A stretch of DNA of 57,147 nt from Fimbriimonadaceae bacterium (GTDB lineage: Bacteria; Armatimonadota; Fimbriimonadia; Fimbriimonadales; Fimbriimonadaceae): assembly GCA_019638835.1 (NCBI GenBank), contig JAHBTC010000003.1, positions 1 to 57,147 of the forward strand. Reading direction: 5' to 3'. Under the pieces are notes generated by a model. That model was not told the DNA's origin, did no database searches, and saw only the letters and a list, made by a program, of their open reading frames with translations. The position numbers and the translations under genes are program-made. How positions within the stretch are numbered: the stretch's first letter is position 1; each line of letters begins with the position of its first letter. This document shows, in pieces, positions 23,311 to 28,472 of the stretch.

Positions 23311-24221
23311 CCCATTTTGGTACGGCAAGCCTCAAGCCGTTCTGGGAGTCAAGTGTCGTGTGCATCGGCACATTCGACGGAGTCCATCGCGGTCATGCTC
23401 ATGTCATCGGCCGTGCCGTCTCGCTGGCCCACGAATCGGAGCAACCATGCGCTTTGGTGACTTTTGACCGCCACCCCGCACAGGTTCTTCGACCGGCCAC
23501 CCGGCCCCCGATTCTCGCGACCCTCGAGCAGAATCTACGGCAGTTTCGGACACTTGGGGTGTCGATCTGTTTGATTCTTCCTTTCGATCAGTCTCTTGCG
23601 CAAACGGAAGCCGCTGAGTTTGCTAATCACGTGTTCGACGAATGCTTGCGAGCCAAACGCATCGTGGCCGGTCATGACTTCGCATTTGGCAAGGATCGCG
23701 GCGGCACCCCTGAGTGGCTTCGGAGCCGCTACGACACCGAGATTGTTCCCCCATTTTCGCCAGAAGGCACTCGAATCAGCAGTTCAATGATTCGCGAGGC
23801 AGTCGCATCAGGGCAAGTTGAGCGAGCTTGCGAGGCCCTCGGCCGCCCCTTTGCCTTGGCCGGCGTGGTTGTAAAGGGACAGCAGTTAGGGCGAACGCTT
23901 GGATTCCCGACCGCAAACTTGGCCCGAAGTTCAGAACAAGTCGTTCCGGGTGATGGGGTTTATGCGGGATGGGCACACATTGACGGACGAGTTTTCGCCG
24001 CCGCCACGAGCGTCGGGATGCGGCCCACCGTCGGTGGCACCCAGCGAACGGTCGAAGCCTATCTGTTGGATTACCCCGGCGAGGAAATCTACGGCAGGGC
24101 AATGGAACTCTCCTTCGTGACCCGGCTTCGCCCAGAGATGCACTTTGGCACCGTCGAGGAAATGGTTGTCCAAATGCACGAAGACGTGCGCCAGACTCGC
24201 GAGCGCCTTCACTTCTCCTAG
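23304..24221 (+). CDS. ribF: Bifunctional riboflavin kinase / FAD synthetase
   Basis: 305 residues. The TTG at 23304 is chosen because AAGGAG lies 8 bases upstream and no better start precedes the family's first motif. The N-terminal FAD synthetase domain has VVCIGTFDGVHRGHAHVI (the nucleotidyltransferase HxGH-like region) and SSSMIREAVASG (ISSTxIR-like); the C-terminal riboflavin kinase domain has GRTLGFPTANL and the VEAYLLDYPGEEIYG block. It converts riboflavin to FMN and FAD. It overlaps the upstream membrane-protein gene by 7 bases. Confidence 0.95.
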   Translation: MLTHFGTASLKPFWESSVVCIGTFDGVHRGHAHVIGRAVSLAHESEQPCALVTFDRHPAQVLRPATRPPILATLEQNLRQFRTLGVSICLILPFDQSLAQTEAAEFANHVFDECLRAKRIVAGHDFAFGKDRGGTPEWLRSRYDTEIVPPFSPEGTRISSSMIREAVASGQVERACEALGRPFALAGVVVKGQQLGRTLGFPTANLARSSEQVVPGDGVYAGWAHIDGRVFAAATSVGMRPTVGGTQRTVEAYLLDYPGEEIYGRAMELSFVTRLRPEMHFGTVEEMVVQMHEDVRQTRERLHFS

Positions 24222-24224
24222 ACC

Positions 24225-24255
24225 AAAAAAGTGCCCCCGCCACAAGGACGAGGGC
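24225..24255 (-). terminator. Intrinsic terminator of the minus-strand secreted-protein gene
   Basis: Read on the minus strand: GCCCTCG, a 9-base loop and CGGGGGC (7-bp stem with one T:G pair), then AC and six T. It lies 51 bases beyond the stop at 24306 and serves that gene; it may also stop ribF transcripts from the other side. Confidence 0.75.
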
Positions 24256-24305
24256 TAGGGGTGGTTGGTGATGGTTATTTGTTTTTTGGGGATGAGTGCG
24301 ACCCT

Positions 24306-24656
24306 TTAGCGACTGCGGATGTATCCGCTGTAACGCTGTGCCGGGCCATAGTTCTCGAACACAAGATCGAGAGTTGTTCGACGCATGACTTCAACGACCA
24401 CTAAGGGTTCGTTGTCGTCGAGCGTGTCGGATGCGATCAGGCTTCCAGCCCCATCGTAGACTTTGAGATCGAGATCACAAGTCCGGCGGTTGCCTTCGGC
24501 ATATATTGAATAAGTGCCGGGTGTGAACTCGAAAGTGCGCACATGGTACGAGTCTGCACCGAGATTTCCGTTCAGACCCGCGTAAGAACCCGAGATGCCG
24601 AAGGCGGAAACGAGGAGAGAGGCCGCCAACAATCCAAAAGTGAGTCTCCGTTTCAT
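24306..24656 (-). CDS. Small secreted protein with one PPC-like domain (paralogue 1)
   Basis: 116 residues: signal peptide (MKRRLTFGLLAASLLVSAFG...) then one domain of about 85 residues. The domain pattern is GxL, GTYSIYAEG, CDLDLKVYDGAGSLIA, DTLDDNEPLV and ENYGPAQRYSGYIRSR. This resembles the bacterial pre-peptidase C-terminal (PPC) fold, normally an appendage of secreted proteases, but here it stands alone. It is the last of three paralogous genes (24306, 24842, 25393) placed head to tail, each with its own CRP-type operator and promoter. Function unknown; a secreted binding or structural role is likely. Confidence 0.72.
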   Translation of the reverse strand: MKRRLTFGLLAASLLVSAFGISGSYAGLNGNLGADSYHVRTFEFTPGTYSIYAEGNRRTCDLDLKVYDGAGSLIASDTLDDNEPLVVVEVMRRTTLDLVFENYGPAQRYSGYIRSR

Positions 24657-24701
24657 TTTCGTTGTTGTATGCGCTGGGCCTACTCTCCTCTCTACAAACG
24701 T

Positions 24702-24774
24702 AGTATCGCGCCTCAGAAACAGGGGGTCGTCATCTAGTTCACGCGGAAGGTGTGATCTAGATCACACCTTCCGC
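24702..24774 (-). promoter_or_regulatory. CRP-type operator (32-bp palindrome) and promoter of paralogue 1
   Basis: TGTGATCTAGATCACA at 24751-24766 is an exact TGTGA-N6-TCACA site. The symmetry extends outward as GCGGAAGG (24743-24750) and CCTTCCGC (24767-24774), giving a perfect 32-bp palindrome. On the minus strand GATACT at 24707-24702 is a candidate -10 whose centre is 54 bases from the operator centre; no good -35 is visible, as expected for an activator-dependent promoter. The ATG is 45 bases after the -10. Confidence 0.75.
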
Positions 24775-24807
24775 CGACGCTATATGTGAGGGCCGCCGCG
24801 TTCCGTC

Positions 24808-24828
24808 GCAACGACCCCCTGGGGTTGC
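24808..24828 (-). terminator. Hairpin after paralogue 2
   Basis: GCAA...TTGC encloses CCCC...GGGG with a 3-base bulge, 14 bases past the stop at 24842. No T-run follows, so it is a weaker terminator candidate than those of the neighbouring paralogues. Confidence 0.4.
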
Positions 24829-24841
24829 TCTTGAGAGAATC

Positions 24842-25201
24842 TCAGTCCACTTGCCGGATGTATCCGGTGTAGCGCTGGGAAACCCCGTTGTTCACGATCT
24901 CAACGTGGCCGCGTCCGCCGCGATCCAGCGAGAACTCCACGAGTGGCTCGTTGTCGATCAGTTCATCCTTGCCACACAGATTGCCGTATCCGTCATAGAC
25001 GAAGATATCAAGATCGCTGTAAGCATTCGTGCCTTCTAAGTAGATGACATAGTCGCCAGCACTCAAGGTGTAGTCCCGAGTGACTACCGAGTCGGCACCA
25101 ATTCGACCGGATACCGTTTGTCTCCAACCTACGGCGGCCTGAGAAATGGCTAGGGCGCAGACTGCAGAAACGACGAAGATGTTGCGGGTGATGTTTTTCA
25201 T
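24842..25201 (-). CDS. Small secreted protein with one PPC-like domain (paralogue 2)
   Basis: 119 residues from ATG 25201 (MKNITRN), which gives a signal peptide ending near residue 24; the open frame further upstream crosses the promoter and operator. The single domain matches its neighbours: VSGRIGADS, AGDYVIYLEG, SDLDIFVYDGYGNLCG, DELIDNEPLVEF and NNGVSQRYTGYIRQ. An AAGG lies about 13 bases before the start. The leader just before the ATG (AACGGAAAATG) resembles those of paralogues 1 and 3, indicating that gene and control region duplicated together. Confidence 0.72.
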   Translation of the reverse strand: MKNITRNIFVVSAVCALAISQAAVGWRQTVSGRIGADSVVTRDYTLSAGDYVIYLEGTNAYSDLDIFVYDGYGNLCGKDELIDNEPLVEFSLDRGGRGHVEIVNNGVSQRYTGYIRQVD

Positions 25202-25244
25202 TTTCCGTTTTCCTTGAGTCGCTTTCTTTGCGGCTCGTAAGATG

Positions 25245-25310
25245 ATTGTCGCCCAGCGGAAATGCTTGCACCCGCAATGATTCACAGGCGAAATGTGATG
25301 TAGATCACAT
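25245..25310 (-). promoter_or_regulatory. CRP-type operator and promoter of paralogue 2
   Basis: TGTGATGTAGATCACA at 25294-25309 matches TGTGA-N6-TCACA exactly, flanked symmetrically by A and T. On the minus strand GACAAT at 25250-25245 (4 of 6 matches to TATAAT) lies at the same 54-base centre-to-centre distance seen at the other two genes, and 43 bases before the ATG. Confidence 0.72.
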
Positions 25311-25333
25311 CCATCGTTTGCCAAAAACTTGAG

Positions 25334-25373
25334 GTCTCAAAAGGAGACGCCCGCCGGCCAACGGCCGACGGGC
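25334..25373 (-). terminator. Strong double hairpin terminating paralogue 3
   Basis: GCCCG/CGGGC and CGGCC/GGCCG form a long GC-rich stem with an AAC loop at 25349-25373. On the minus strand it is followed by a second small hairpin (GTCTC/GAGAC) whose loop contains TTTT. It starts 19 bases after the stop at 25393. Confidence 0.65.
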
Positions 25374-25392
25374 GAGGTTGATTCCAAAGGGA

Positions 25393-26046
25393 TCAGAGGC
25401 GGCGGATACTTCCGGAATACGCCTGAGCGGCGCCGTAGTTGAACACCTTGATCGTGTAGGACTGGCTGCTGGACACTCGGAACTCAACAATCGGATTGTT
25501 GTCTTCCAATTCGTCCGAGCCCACCAAGTCACCTCGCGAGTTGTAGACAAAGCAGTCAAGATCGCCACGACTATTCCGGCCCGTCAAATCAACCCGATAC
25601 GTGCCATTGGATAGGCTCAGAGTGAACTCATCCGATTCGGACTCGACCAAGTAGCCCTCCATCGTGCGCATGAAACTCTGTGGAGCCGTGACCCCCGTTG
25701 ATCGAATGTTTCCCCGATAGGACTGTGACACCCCATAGTTCATCACTTGAACGGTGTACGTACCAGTTGAAGCGGCCCGGAAATCAACGATCGGATTGTT
25801 ATCGTCGAGATCATCACTCCCAATCAGATCGCCGTCCGCATTGTAAACAAAGCAGTCAAGATCTCCCCGAGTGTTACCACCGGTCAAATCCACCTTATAG
25901 TCTCCACGCGTCAAGGCAAACTCAAACTCCTTACTGTCTCCTTCCCCGAGATATCCACTGATCGAACGCTCCCAGAATGTTGCTTGTGCGATGGCGATGG
26001 CCGCAACGCAGCCAAAGGCGACGAGGTTTCGATTGATGTTCATCAT
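25393..26046 (-). CDS. Secreted protein with two tandem PPC-like domains (paralogue 3)
   Basis: 217 residues from adjacent ATGs at 26046 and 26043. A signal peptide (to about residue 22) is followed by two copies of the domain in the neighbouring genes, at about residues 25-115 and 127-216. Both contain DLDCFVYN, a GDL(I/V)GSD block, a D(L/E)xDNNPIV block and NYG(V/A)(S/A)Q(S/A)Y(R/S)G. A TGVTAPQS linker joins them. The two copies are more alike to each other than to the single-domain paralogues, so the second arose by internal duplication. AGGA lies about 11 bases before the start. Function unknown. Confidence 0.75.
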   Translation of the reverse strand: MMNINRNLVAFGCVAAIAIAQATFWERSISGYLGEGDSKEFEFALTRGDYKVDLTGGNTRGDLDCFVYNADGDLIGSDDLDDNNPIVDFRAASTGTYTVQVMNYGVSQSYRGNIRSTGVTAPQSFMRTMEGYLVESESDEFTLSLSNGTYRVDLTGRNSRGDLDCFVYNSRGDLVGSDELEDNNPIVEFRVSSSQSYTIKVFNYGAAQAYSGSIRRL

Positions 26047-26087
26047 TTTCGTTTCCTAGAGCCGTCTCAAATTTGGCTCATGCAAAC

Positions 26088-26152
26088 AGTATCACGTCAC
26101 CAAAATCAGATGAAAGTCGTTCATTCACACGTCATAGGTGATTTAGATCACA
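26088..26152 (-). promoter_or_regulatory. CRP-type operator and promoter of paralogue 3
   Basis: GGTGATTTAGATCACA at 26137-26152 differs from TGTGA-N6-TCACA by one base and overlaps the stop codon of the regulator gene. On the minus strand GATACT at 26093-26088 is identical to the -10 of paralogue 1 and lies at the same 54-base centre distance. The ATG is 41-44 bases downstream. Confidence 0.68.
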
Positions 26153-26867
26153 AAGGAGCAGCCATCGCCTTCAGAGCTTTGATCTGTATAAGAATAATCC
26201 TTTGTTTTTCATCATATTCGATCAGCCCTTCTCGGCGCCAACGTCCCAATGCTTTGTTCGTGTGTTCTCGGGAGCAGTGGATGAGACGCGACAATGTCTT
26301 CTGACTAAGTTCAAGCGGAATCAACACGGTTCGGTCTTCGCGCCGAATTCCCGTTCGCCTTGCCAAGTCAATAAGGGTATGCGCTAATCGCGCGTCGGCT
26401 GACCAAAACGATGCAACTCTGTCGGTGATACTTTCCACCAGTTTTTCGCCAAGTAACTTGATCATCCCCATAGCGATGAGTGGGTCGTCTTCTAACCCTT
26501 CCTGAATCTGCACTCCTGACCAAGCGTAGACACGGCATTCGGTCATCGCAATTACGTCCGCTGTCCGTCCCGACTCGACGACCATGGAGAGTTCCCCAAT
26601 GATCTCTCCTGGCCCCCTCAGTTTGAGAAGCGTACTTTCCCCCGGTGCAGTTTCTGATTCGATGCTGAGAAATCCTTCAAGAATGATGAATAGCAATCCC
26701 GCCGGGTCATCTTTGAAGAACAGATTGTTGCCCTCCGCCACTTTCCGAATACTTCCGCCGGAACAGTACTGAGCGATTTGCGATTCACTTAACTCCTGAA
26801 AGAGGAGCGACTTGGACAGCAGTTCGATCACTTCCGATGGTGCGGGCGACTTTGCGATATGGCTCAA
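26148..26867 (-). CDS. CRP/FNR-family transcription regulator
   Basis: 239 residues from TTG 26867, whose first bases overlap the cyclase-like gene's TGA (TTGA) and which has AAGGAG 10 bases upstream. Residues about 20-140 form a cyclic-nucleotide-binding domain with a phosphate-binding cassette (GEL 91-93, RTA 101-103) like that of E. coli CRP, so cNMP binding is likely. The C-terminal winged helix has recognition helix CSREHTNKAL (198-207); R200 and E201 correspond to CRP R180 and E181, which read TGTGA. That agrees with the TGTGA-type sites before the next three genes. It lacks the N-terminal cysteines of FNR. Confidence 0.9.
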   Translation of the reverse strand: MSHIAKSPAPSEVIELLSKSLLFQELSESQIAQYCSGGSIRKVAEGNNLFFKDDPAGLLFIILEGFLSIESETAPGESTLLKLRGPGEIIGELSMVVESGRTADVIAMTECRVYAWSGVQIQEGLEDDPLIAMGMIKLLGEKLVESITDRVASFWSADARLAHTLIDLARRTGIRREDRTVLIPLELSQKTLSRLIHCSREHTNKALGRWRREGLIEYDEKQRIILIQIKALKAMAAPL

Positions 26868-27940
26868 TTGGGCATGTCTCCTTGTCGGATAGGGGTTCCA
26901 TCACCTTGCGCGTTGCCTCCTCCTGGCCGGAAGTTGGGGGTGACGTCAATACTCTGTTCGCCGTTCGGTCGAGACGAGTCAGGGACGAAATCGTTGGTGC
27001 CTTGGTTTAAGGGTCGCGTTCGCGAGCGACCGTCCTCGTTGGTATTCGAGAAACCCGTTCGGTCGGGCTCCGCCTTCGGGATCTCAATCGGCTTGTCTTC
27101 CAAATCTGCCTGGGACGTAGTCTCAACACTTGAAGGAAGAGTTGGATTCGGCTCGTTTTGTCTCGACTGATAAATTTGGAATCCCATTGCTCCGAACGAA
27201 CCGAGAATGATCACAAGCAATACCAGGATGTAAGCCGTCCTCGCCCGCTGGTCGCCTTCCTCGTACTTCTTTTGAATCGCGCTGAGCTCATTTTTCCTAT
27301 GCTCGTCCTTAACGCCATCAAAAAATGCCCTTGCCGCGTCGCCGCTCAACTCTTCATCGGTCAGCGGTTGGTCCACGGGAGGCATGATTCGATAAGCACG
27401 CACTGAATGCGGAACCCCTTTGATATCAACCGGCCCAAGAAAGTGGCGGCGGTACTTGAGGTTAGAACGCGCGATGTTGTCAATCTCCTCGGAGACGATG
27501 ATCTCATTGGGTCCAGCCATCTGCTCCAGGCGGGCCGCGACCGCGACGGCCATCCCACTCACGGTGCCTTCTACCATCACGATATCGGAAGCGTGAATGC
27601 CGATGCGATGCCGAATCGGGAGTCGGTCCTTGGCTTCCGCATTGTCTTGCCGAGACCACTCCAACATATGGAGAGCCGCCTCCAAAGTCCGAACGGGGCT
27701 TGGGAAAACGGCCTTCCAACCATCGCCACGGTCTGTGACGATAGAACCTCCCGACTCTTCGATGAATTTGCGGAATTGAGTGAGGTGACGGCGCACCTCG
27801 CGAACGATAGACTCTTCGGCTTGAGACGTCATTGACGTGAAGCCGTGAATGTCCGATTGAAGGACCGTCGCAAACTGGCGACCGACCTCCTCCGTCGCTG
27901 GTTCAGGACGTGGAGATTCCATCACACCACCCGTACGCAT
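26864..27940 (-). CDS. Membrane protein with N-terminal class III nucleotidyl cyclase domain
   Basis: 358 residues from ATG 27940 (or ATG 27922). Residues about 20-185 form a class III cyclase homology domain: metal-binding D30 in SDIHGFTSMT and D73 in RGDG, HRIGIHAS near 111, and VAARLEQ near 134 with R137. Two usual catalytic residues differ: the purine-binding lysine position is T69 and the transition-state asparagine position is A133. A helix at 236-257 spans the membrane, leaving a proline- and asparagine-rich tail of about 100 residues outside. It is coupled to the CRP gene, so it is the obvious candidate source or modulator of its ligand. Confidence 0.85.
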   Translation of the reverse strand: MRTGGVMESPRPEPATEEVGRQFATVLQSDIHGFTSMTSQAEESIVREVRRHLTQFRKFIEESGGSIVTDRGDGWKAVFPSPVRTLEAALHMLEWSRQDNAEAKDRLPIRHRIGIHASDIVMVEGTVSGMAVAVAARLEQMAGPNEIIVSEEIDNIARSNLKYRRHFLGPVDIKGVPHSVRAYRIMPPVDQPLTDEELSGDAARAFFDGVKDEHRKNELSAIQKKYEEGDQRARTAYILVLLVIILGSFGAMGFQIYQSRQNEPNPTLPSSVETTSQADLEDKPIEIPKAEPDRTGFSNTNEDGRSRTRPLNQGTNDFVPDSSRPNGEQSIDVTPNFRPGGGNAQGDGTPIRQGDMPN

Positions 27941-27995
27941 ACTACTTGATGTAGGTGCGGCACTGACTCACTTTTCTTTACGTCTGAAACGAAAA

Positions 27996-28472
27996 ATGAA
28001 GCGCAATTTGCTCATTCTCTTCGGCGTAATCGTGGTCGCGCTCTTGAGTGTTGGATTTGTGGTCGCTTCCCGGCAACCAAGTGACGAAGCTTTGATTCGC
28101 GATTCGCTCGAGTCGGCTGTCGCCGCGAGCCGCGATGGTGCGCCGGGGAGCCTTTACGCCGAACTTAGCCGAAGCCTTGAAGTAAACGGGCAGATGGTTG
28201 GTCGCGATCCGGAAGTCAATGAGTTCATTAAGAAACTCAAACCCGAAATTGCTCTGGGGGAATACACGCCTGTTGTGGACGGCGACACGGCAACCGTCAC
28301 AACCGCCGCGAACGTTACTTTCGGTCTTGGTAACTTTTCGAACACGCAGGTCATCAACCGAGTTGAGATTGAGTTTGCAAGGGAGAGAGCCACCAAATGG
28401 GTTTTCATCCCGACCCACAAGTGGCGAATTACAAAGGTGAGCGCGCCCGATTTTGTTGCGCCCGACTACTGA
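27996..28472 (+). CDS. Membrane-anchored protein of unknown function
   Basis: 158 residues. One N-terminal membrane helix (about residues 5-25) is followed by a soluble domain with alternating helix and beta segments (RDSLESAVAASRDG then VNGDTATVTTAANV-like strands), reminiscent of NTF2-like or DUF4878-type lipoprotein-like domains, but I cannot assign it. It runs divergently from the cyclase gene with a 55-base gap that must hold both promoters. Its end overlaps the convergent SRPBCC gene by 7 bases. Confidence 0.6.
   Translation: MKRNLLILFGVIVVALLSVGFVVASRQPSDEALIRDSLESAVAASRDGAPGSLYAELSRSLEVNGQMVGRDPEVNEFIKKLKPEIALGEYTPVVDGDTATVTTAANVTFGLGNFSNTQVINRVEIEFARERATKWVFIPTHKWRITKVSAPDFVAPDY

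Follow-up and report, generated by a model that had tools for sequence, protein, structure and literature searches.

CRP-dependent promoters and the Fimbriimonadaceae locus

Class II CRP-dependent promoters carry a CRP site that is centred at -41.5 and overlaps the -35 element. E. coli CRP reads the half-site TGTGA through residues of the R-E-x3-R type. In actinobacteria, the CRP/FNR proteins GlxR and Mt-CRP are global regulators. At class I promoters a single site lies at -61.5, -71.5 or -82.5, upstream of the -35. PMC6301791 gives a class I cooperativity factor in E. coli of 763 at -61.5, 4.15 at -63.5 and 5.80 at -64.5. Tandem sites are found at class III promoters. For example, Vibrio tfoX combines a strong distal CRP site with a degenerate proximal site at -41.5, one half-site of which is poor; the two are 43 bp apart, and the best synergy is given as 40-50 bp upstream (PMC4595672).

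The locus described here lies in a 57,147-nucleotide stretch of DNA from a member of the Fimbriimonadaceae, here called the window. Like E. coli CRP-dependent promoters, its promoters have a TGTGA-N6-TCACA operator; the upstream site is predicted to lie near -64 and the proximal one where class II sites lie, a position at which a -35 is dispensable. Unlike them, they carry two abutting sites at a fixed 22-23 bp, and the distal site is 2-3 bp away from the best class I position in E. coli (PMC6301791). As at tfoX, the distal site is strong and the proximal one, at the predicted class II position, is degenerate; the spacing differs, being 22-23 bp here, with dimers proposed to lie side by side. 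The observation from which the analysis started is confirmed and extends beyond the window; the class I label is incomplete for these promoters. Literature searches returned nothing on a cyclase-CRP pair or CRP sites in Fimbriimonas or Armatimonadota, which is weak evidence given that subscription journals lay mostly outside the search, and no 22-23 bp pair appeared in titles or abstract starts on tandem CRP geometry, which is likewise weak evidence.

A cyclase, a CRP-like regulator and three small secreted proteins

The genes of the module follow one another on the minus strand in the order cyclase, CRP-like regulator and three small genes.

26864..27940, minus strand: gene for a 358-aa class III nucleotide cyclase (Pfam Guanylate_cyc, PF00211, E 4.2e-12, 46.5 bits, cut-off 21.9)
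26148..26867, minus strand: gene for a 239-aa CRP-like regulator, with TTG as start codon (Pfam cNMP_binding 56.9 bits, HTH_Crp_2 52.9 bits)
25393..26046, minus strand: secreted protein gene, 217 aa, two PPC-like repeats (Pfam PPC E 1.8e-10, 42 bits, cut-off 25.9)
25348..25374, minus strand: terminator-like hairpin after the 217-aa gene, 12 pairs, 11 GC, then TCTCCTTTTG
24842..25201, minus strand: small secreted paralogue gene, 119 aa, aligning with the other repeats with 24 invariant columns (alignment A1)
24306..24656, minus strand: small secreted paralogue gene, 116 aa, aligning with the other repeats

The 3' end of the cyclase gene runs into the regulator gene, whose TTG start overlaps the cyclase stop. 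A divergent reading frame upstream of the cyclase (27996-28472) codes for a protein of 158 aa whose N-terminus looks like a membrane anchor.

The cyclase belongs to class III by its Guanylate_cyc domain and by D30, D73 and R137, which are invariant in 8/8 aligned cyclases; we take the two Asp residues to be metal-binding and the Arg to be catalytic. All eight (the window protein and L046, L047 and L096-L100) share an RGDGxK motif. The substrate-specifying Lys and the transition-state Asn are absent at the aligned positions in 8/8 family members, making cyclase activity uncertain. Such a non-standard active site may point to a different product or to an inactive enzyme. The catalytic domain is N-terminal and is followed by a hydrophobic segment and a Pro/Asn-rich tail, an order from which the domain is probably cytoplasmic and the tail outside. 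The best solved relatives are 3mr7 and LipJ (1ybt). The LipJ (Rv1900c) domain, presumably an active enzyme, likewise keeps the metal-binding Asp residues and deviates in alignment at the substrate-Lys and Asn positions; in contrast to LipJ, the protein described here has no lipase domain, carries a membrane segment and a tail after the cyclase domain, and has RGDGxK. A term search of PMC2447327 for Rv1900c residues had no match. With six class III cyclase domains in the window genome, the regulator could also be fed by other cyclases.

The regulator carries both PF00027 and PF13545 above their cut-offs, which places it in the CRP-like branch of the CRP/FNR superfamily. It contains GEL...RTA and CSREHTNKAL motifs. 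Its phosphate-binding cassette conforms to GE..R[ST]A, the form that accommodates a cyclic nucleotide, with G91, E92, R101 and A103 invariant among 10 aligned members; the ligand is putative. It is no orthologue of E. coli CRP by the NCBIfam cut-off (52.3 bits against 266 bits for NF008732), and it has R-E-x3-K where most relatives have R-E-x3-R. By sequence, its best solved relatives are the actinobacterial-type CRP/FNR proteins 3r6s, 4byy and 3d0s, which we take to be GlxR and Mt-CRP. Unlike these, the regulator is in an operon with its own cyclase and lies beside local targets. Binding of the sites by another, global CRP was considered and rejected, since in the window genome no protein but the regulator matches HTH_Crp_2 over its full length. 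Two further matches are partial, covering 42 and 36 of the 70 positions, and one of these exceeds the cut-off.

The products of the three small genes all have a hydrophobic N-terminal stretch and align as repeats of one domain, although the 119-aa and 116-aa proteins have no Pfam match of their own. Terminator-like hairpin sites are as frequent in the region as in shuffled sequence (4 found, 4.0 expected). PPC-type relatives (E <= 1e-6) were found in 4/85 family genomes, namely the window genome (G000), G087, G015 and G063, all of which have the regulator. The closest relative of the PPC protein is in G087, another genus, where the operator, the half-site, TAAAAC at the window offset plus one and an ATG at the same distance are present. 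The relatives in G015 and G063 showed no operator in the upstream DNA examined. In G097, a further small secreted protein lies behind the same promoter layout; it falls below the E-value cut for PPC relatives.

Operators and -10 elements of the window promoters

Each small gene is preceded by a promoter with a distal operator of the form TGTGA-N6-TCACA, a proximal site and a -10-like hexamer.

24751-24766, minus strand: distal operator of promoter 1, TGTGATCTAGATCACA, centre 24758.5, inside a perfect 32-bp palindrome (24743-24774)
24728..24743, minus strand: proximal operator of promoter 1, GTGAACTAGATGAC core, near-complete, one mismatch from the full-pair pattern
24702..24707, minus strand: -10-like hexamer GATACT of promoter 1, predicted start near 24695
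25294-25309, minus strand: distal operator of promoter 2, TGTGATGTAGATCACA, centre 25301.5
25271..25286, minus strand: weaker proximal site of promoter 2, GTGAA half-site at 25285-25281
25245..25250, minus strand: -10-like hexamer GACAAT of promoter 2, predicted start near 25238
26137-26152, minus strand: distal operator of promoter 3, GGTGATTTAGATCACA, centre 26144.5, overlapping the regulator stop codon
26114..26129, minus strand: weaker proximal site of promoter 3, GTGAA half-site at 26128-26124, fitting GTGAYN4RTCACN9GTGA
26088..26093, minus strand: -10-like hexamer GATACT of promoter 3, predicted start near 26081

The operator core GTGATNTAGATCAC occurs three times in the genome (2,742,185 bases, 207 contigs), each time at a window promoter, and its reversed pattern had 0 matches. 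Perfect TGTGAN6TCACA occurs in three places, of which two are window operators and the third is on contig C164 (L048 2116; G000:C164:26115). The 32-bp palindrome around operator 1 is longer than a CRP site needs and may double as a hairpin 3' of the 119-aa gene. An Rfam scan of 24200-28100 gave no match.

The earlier note on this DNA had claimed that the three promoters share one operator-to-minus-10 spacing, and this is borne out. The hexamer centres (24704.5, 25247.5 and 26090.5) each lie exactly 54.0 bp from the operator centre. Its description of the promoters also proved accurate in other respects: the -10-to-ATG distances are similar (45, 43 and 41 bases), leaders resembling AACG(G/A)AAATG are present, and a consensus scan pairs no -35 with the three -10s. 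A common offset with at least 4/6 TATAAT matches at all three promoters arose in 80/20,000 shuffled triples, so that for the window promoters alone the shared 54-bp offset has a p of about 0.004.

A second site 23 bp downstream

All three promoters have the pentamer GTGAA, starting at exactly 16.5 bp from the centre of the operator. This half-site would place the centre of a putative second dimer 23 bp downstream of the operator centre. Promoters 2 and 3 have no more than this half-site at the proximal position. If the start site is placed 7 bases past the -10, the distal operator would be centred at about -63.5 in the window and -64.5 in relatives, and the proximal half-site at -40.5 and -41.5, respectively, the -41.5 of relatives being taken from an ATG at +65. 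A proximal site at the class II position would explain the missing -35.

Complete pairs of sites are found in relatives. Two complete operators separated by any gap of 1-30 were searched for in 85 family genomes, and 17 full pairs were found in 11 of them. The spacing was 23 bp in six pairs, 22 bp in five and 17 bp in two, and 15, 21, 31 and 42 bp occurred once each. The 11 pairs at 22-23 bp (binomial p 1e-9, with two of the 11, both at 22 bp, being identical in sequence) were all in genomes bearing the regulator. The identical 36-base pair occurs in two genera (L126 in G097, and G099:C39), perhaps because the stretch is mobile and shared, or because the bins are cross-contaminated. In an order-wide sample of 113 genomes, a 23-bp pair with one mismatch allowed was present in nine, and in 0/28 of the genomes from other families in the order.

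These sites bear on the class I reading of the earlier note, in which the operator alone would act at a class I position. The operator would be at about -63.5; a simple class I assignment is incomplete, as the proximal site 23 bp downstream had been overlooked. A simple class I promoter would have a single dimer at the distal operator contacting the alpha subunit of RNA polymerase, and GTGAA would play no role. In favour of this reading, the strong operator with its spacing is confirmed, and two of the three proximal sites are half-sites only. However, GTGAA recurs at an identical offset in 3/3 promoters and complete second operators occupy this place in relatives, and neither of the predicted positions, -63.5 or -64.5, is among those of class I sites. 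If E. coli geometry carries over, the distal site by itself would activate poorly in the class I manner, with a factor of 4-6 against 763 at -61.5 (PMC6301791). Simple class I activation is unlikely.

Distribution of the sites and the regulator in the family

A profile search found the regulator in 19/85 family genomes. The pattern GTGAYN4RTCACN9GTGA occurs at 25 places in 10 of the 85, and the reversed-pattern control had 0 matches. This control is imperfect since palindrome words differ in composition, and weight was therefore put on the comparison of genomes with and without the regulator. The pattern was present in 8/19 genomes with the regulator and in 2/66 without it (Fisher p 5e-5). These two, G072 and G074, have the pattern at homologous places inside a reading frame. 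The regulator is absent from 2/2 other genomes of the genus (E <= 1e-10; E <= 1e-30). A profile scan of wider contigs brought up five Armatimonadota relatives, the remaining matches being mainly actinobacterial, and a contig scan with the single regulator sequence found no relative.

In seven other genomes (G025, G008, G097, G083, G081, G070 and G090) the cyclase gene has the regulator gene as its neighbour on the same strand; in G063 the two genes are divergent. Operators of the TGTGA-N6-TCACA form (9 or 10 of 10 bases), tandem or single, adjoin the pair in 5/8 of these genomes. They lie between both genes in G025, before the cyclase in G090, G081 and G070, and between the divergent genes in G063; no operator was found beside the pair in G008, G097 or G083. 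In the operator pairs next to the module of G090 and G025, 51 and 54 bases, respectively, separate the distal centre from the ATG. Activation is unlikely there because the next start codon is so close, which suggests autorepression in some genomes; the same sites may act either way.

Could repression be the general mode of action? The bound regulator would then block the promoters or arrange the DNA, and the cyclic nucleotide would relieve or impose silencing. The position of the G090 and G025 pairs near a start codon is what autorepression predicts, and the proximal site overlaps the -35 region. On the other hand, -10s that lack a -35 call for an activator, and a fixed distance to the -10 across unrelated genes is typical of activators. 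Repression as the general explanation is rather improbable.

The spacing rule outside the window

The position of the -10 was examined at 15 of the 25 pattern matches, chosen for a plausible downstream gene. Those in G072 and G074 (in a reading frame) and G097_C78 (a copy of C20) were dropped, as were seven matches for which no plausible start codon lay at 60-110. Of these seven, G090a+, G025_C8+ and G015_C3 satisfied the mechanical rule and were removed by judgment. A -10-like hexamer lies at offset 52-54 from the operator centre in 13/15 selected promoters, the two with no -10 at the expected place being G081 and G025_C1. At the 12 promoters outside the window, the -10 profile peaks at offset 53, one base beyond that of the window promoters, and 0/5,000 shuffles reached as high. 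When matches were not selected by downstream gene, 16/22 had such a hexamer at 52-54, where 15% would be expected, and 17/25 had one when nothing was dropped. In repeat tests on 18, 22, 25 and 19 matches, the peak stayed at offset 53, with 0/3,000 shuffles as high in each. Even the window hexamers recur one base further, GATACT in G025 and GACAAT in G070.

A signal-like hydrophobic N-terminus was seen in 11/15 target products and 66/250 background reading frames, the 11 not being all independent since they include the three window paralogues. At 5/15 promoters an ATG lies at offset 65. In one of them, G097_C20, this ATG is upstream of a likelier start at 108; in the other four it would be about 7 bases past the -10, so that the transcripts may be leaderless, with sites then at -64.5 and -41.5, although some of the reading frames are short and may not be genes. 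At L106 (3389-3427), L069, L074, L075 and L059, the -10 is closely followed by an ATG at about +65-67, which suggests leaderless transcription in the family.

The likeness of the window promoters might stem simply from recent tandem duplication of the genes. The genes are indeed paralogous, and the leader before the ATG matches at 20/38 positions between promoters 2 and 3. Residual homology is contradicted, however, by promoters in other genera that repeat the spacing within 1 bp, mostly before unrelated genes. The window promoters themselves have diverged: the 30-base stretch from half-site to -10 is 33-37% identical, compared with about 25% when slid, and the proteins are only 33-40% identical. 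Between these promoters the half-site is identical at 5/5 positions and the -10 hexamer at 4-6 of 6. Duplication as the sole source of the likeness is extremely improbable. The claim that the spacing was kept by selection is supported by the low spacer identity and by its repetition in other genera. As judged from these comparisons, the operator-to-minus-10 spacing is supported as functional, being neither a coincidence nor a residue of duplication.

Proposed mechanism

The preferred explanation is that the cyclase-CRP module activates the promoters via two abutting sites near -64 and -41, which we consider likely on the sequence evidence. It starts from the observed gene order, sites, spacing and repetition in relatives. 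A membrane-anchored class III cyclase, co-transcribed with the CRP-like regulator, would make the cyclic nucleotide ligand of the regulator. The ligand-bound regulator would bind TGTGA-N6-TCACA, with a first dimer occupying the strong distal site near -64 at each of the three downstream promoters. A second dimer, aided by the first, would then occupy the weaker site 23 bp downstream, near -41. This proximal dimer would replace the -35 and recruit RNA polymerase to the poor -10. The output would be three small secreted paralogues, one of them with recognisable PPC domains.

A more far-reaching version is tentative. It sees a distinct architecture of the family, in which side-by-side CRP dimers at -64.5 and -41.5 would form one cooperative unit dedicated to the local cyclase and would control mainly genes for secreted proteins and lipoproteins, some of them leaderless. 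The cyclase may then make a nucleotide other than cAMP, read privately by the regulator.

Significance

The locus encodes a predicted and nearly complete signalling circuit, comprising an enzyme, a regulator, sites and targets, and does so in a phylum for which molecular genetics is almost lacking. The circuit is small enough for rebuilding and testing in the laboratory. The tandem spacing of 22-23 bp is shorter than the optimum for tandem CRP sites in E. coli and would test joint activation by abutting dimers. Furthermore, the fixed offset of the -10 is a means of finding further targets in related genomes.
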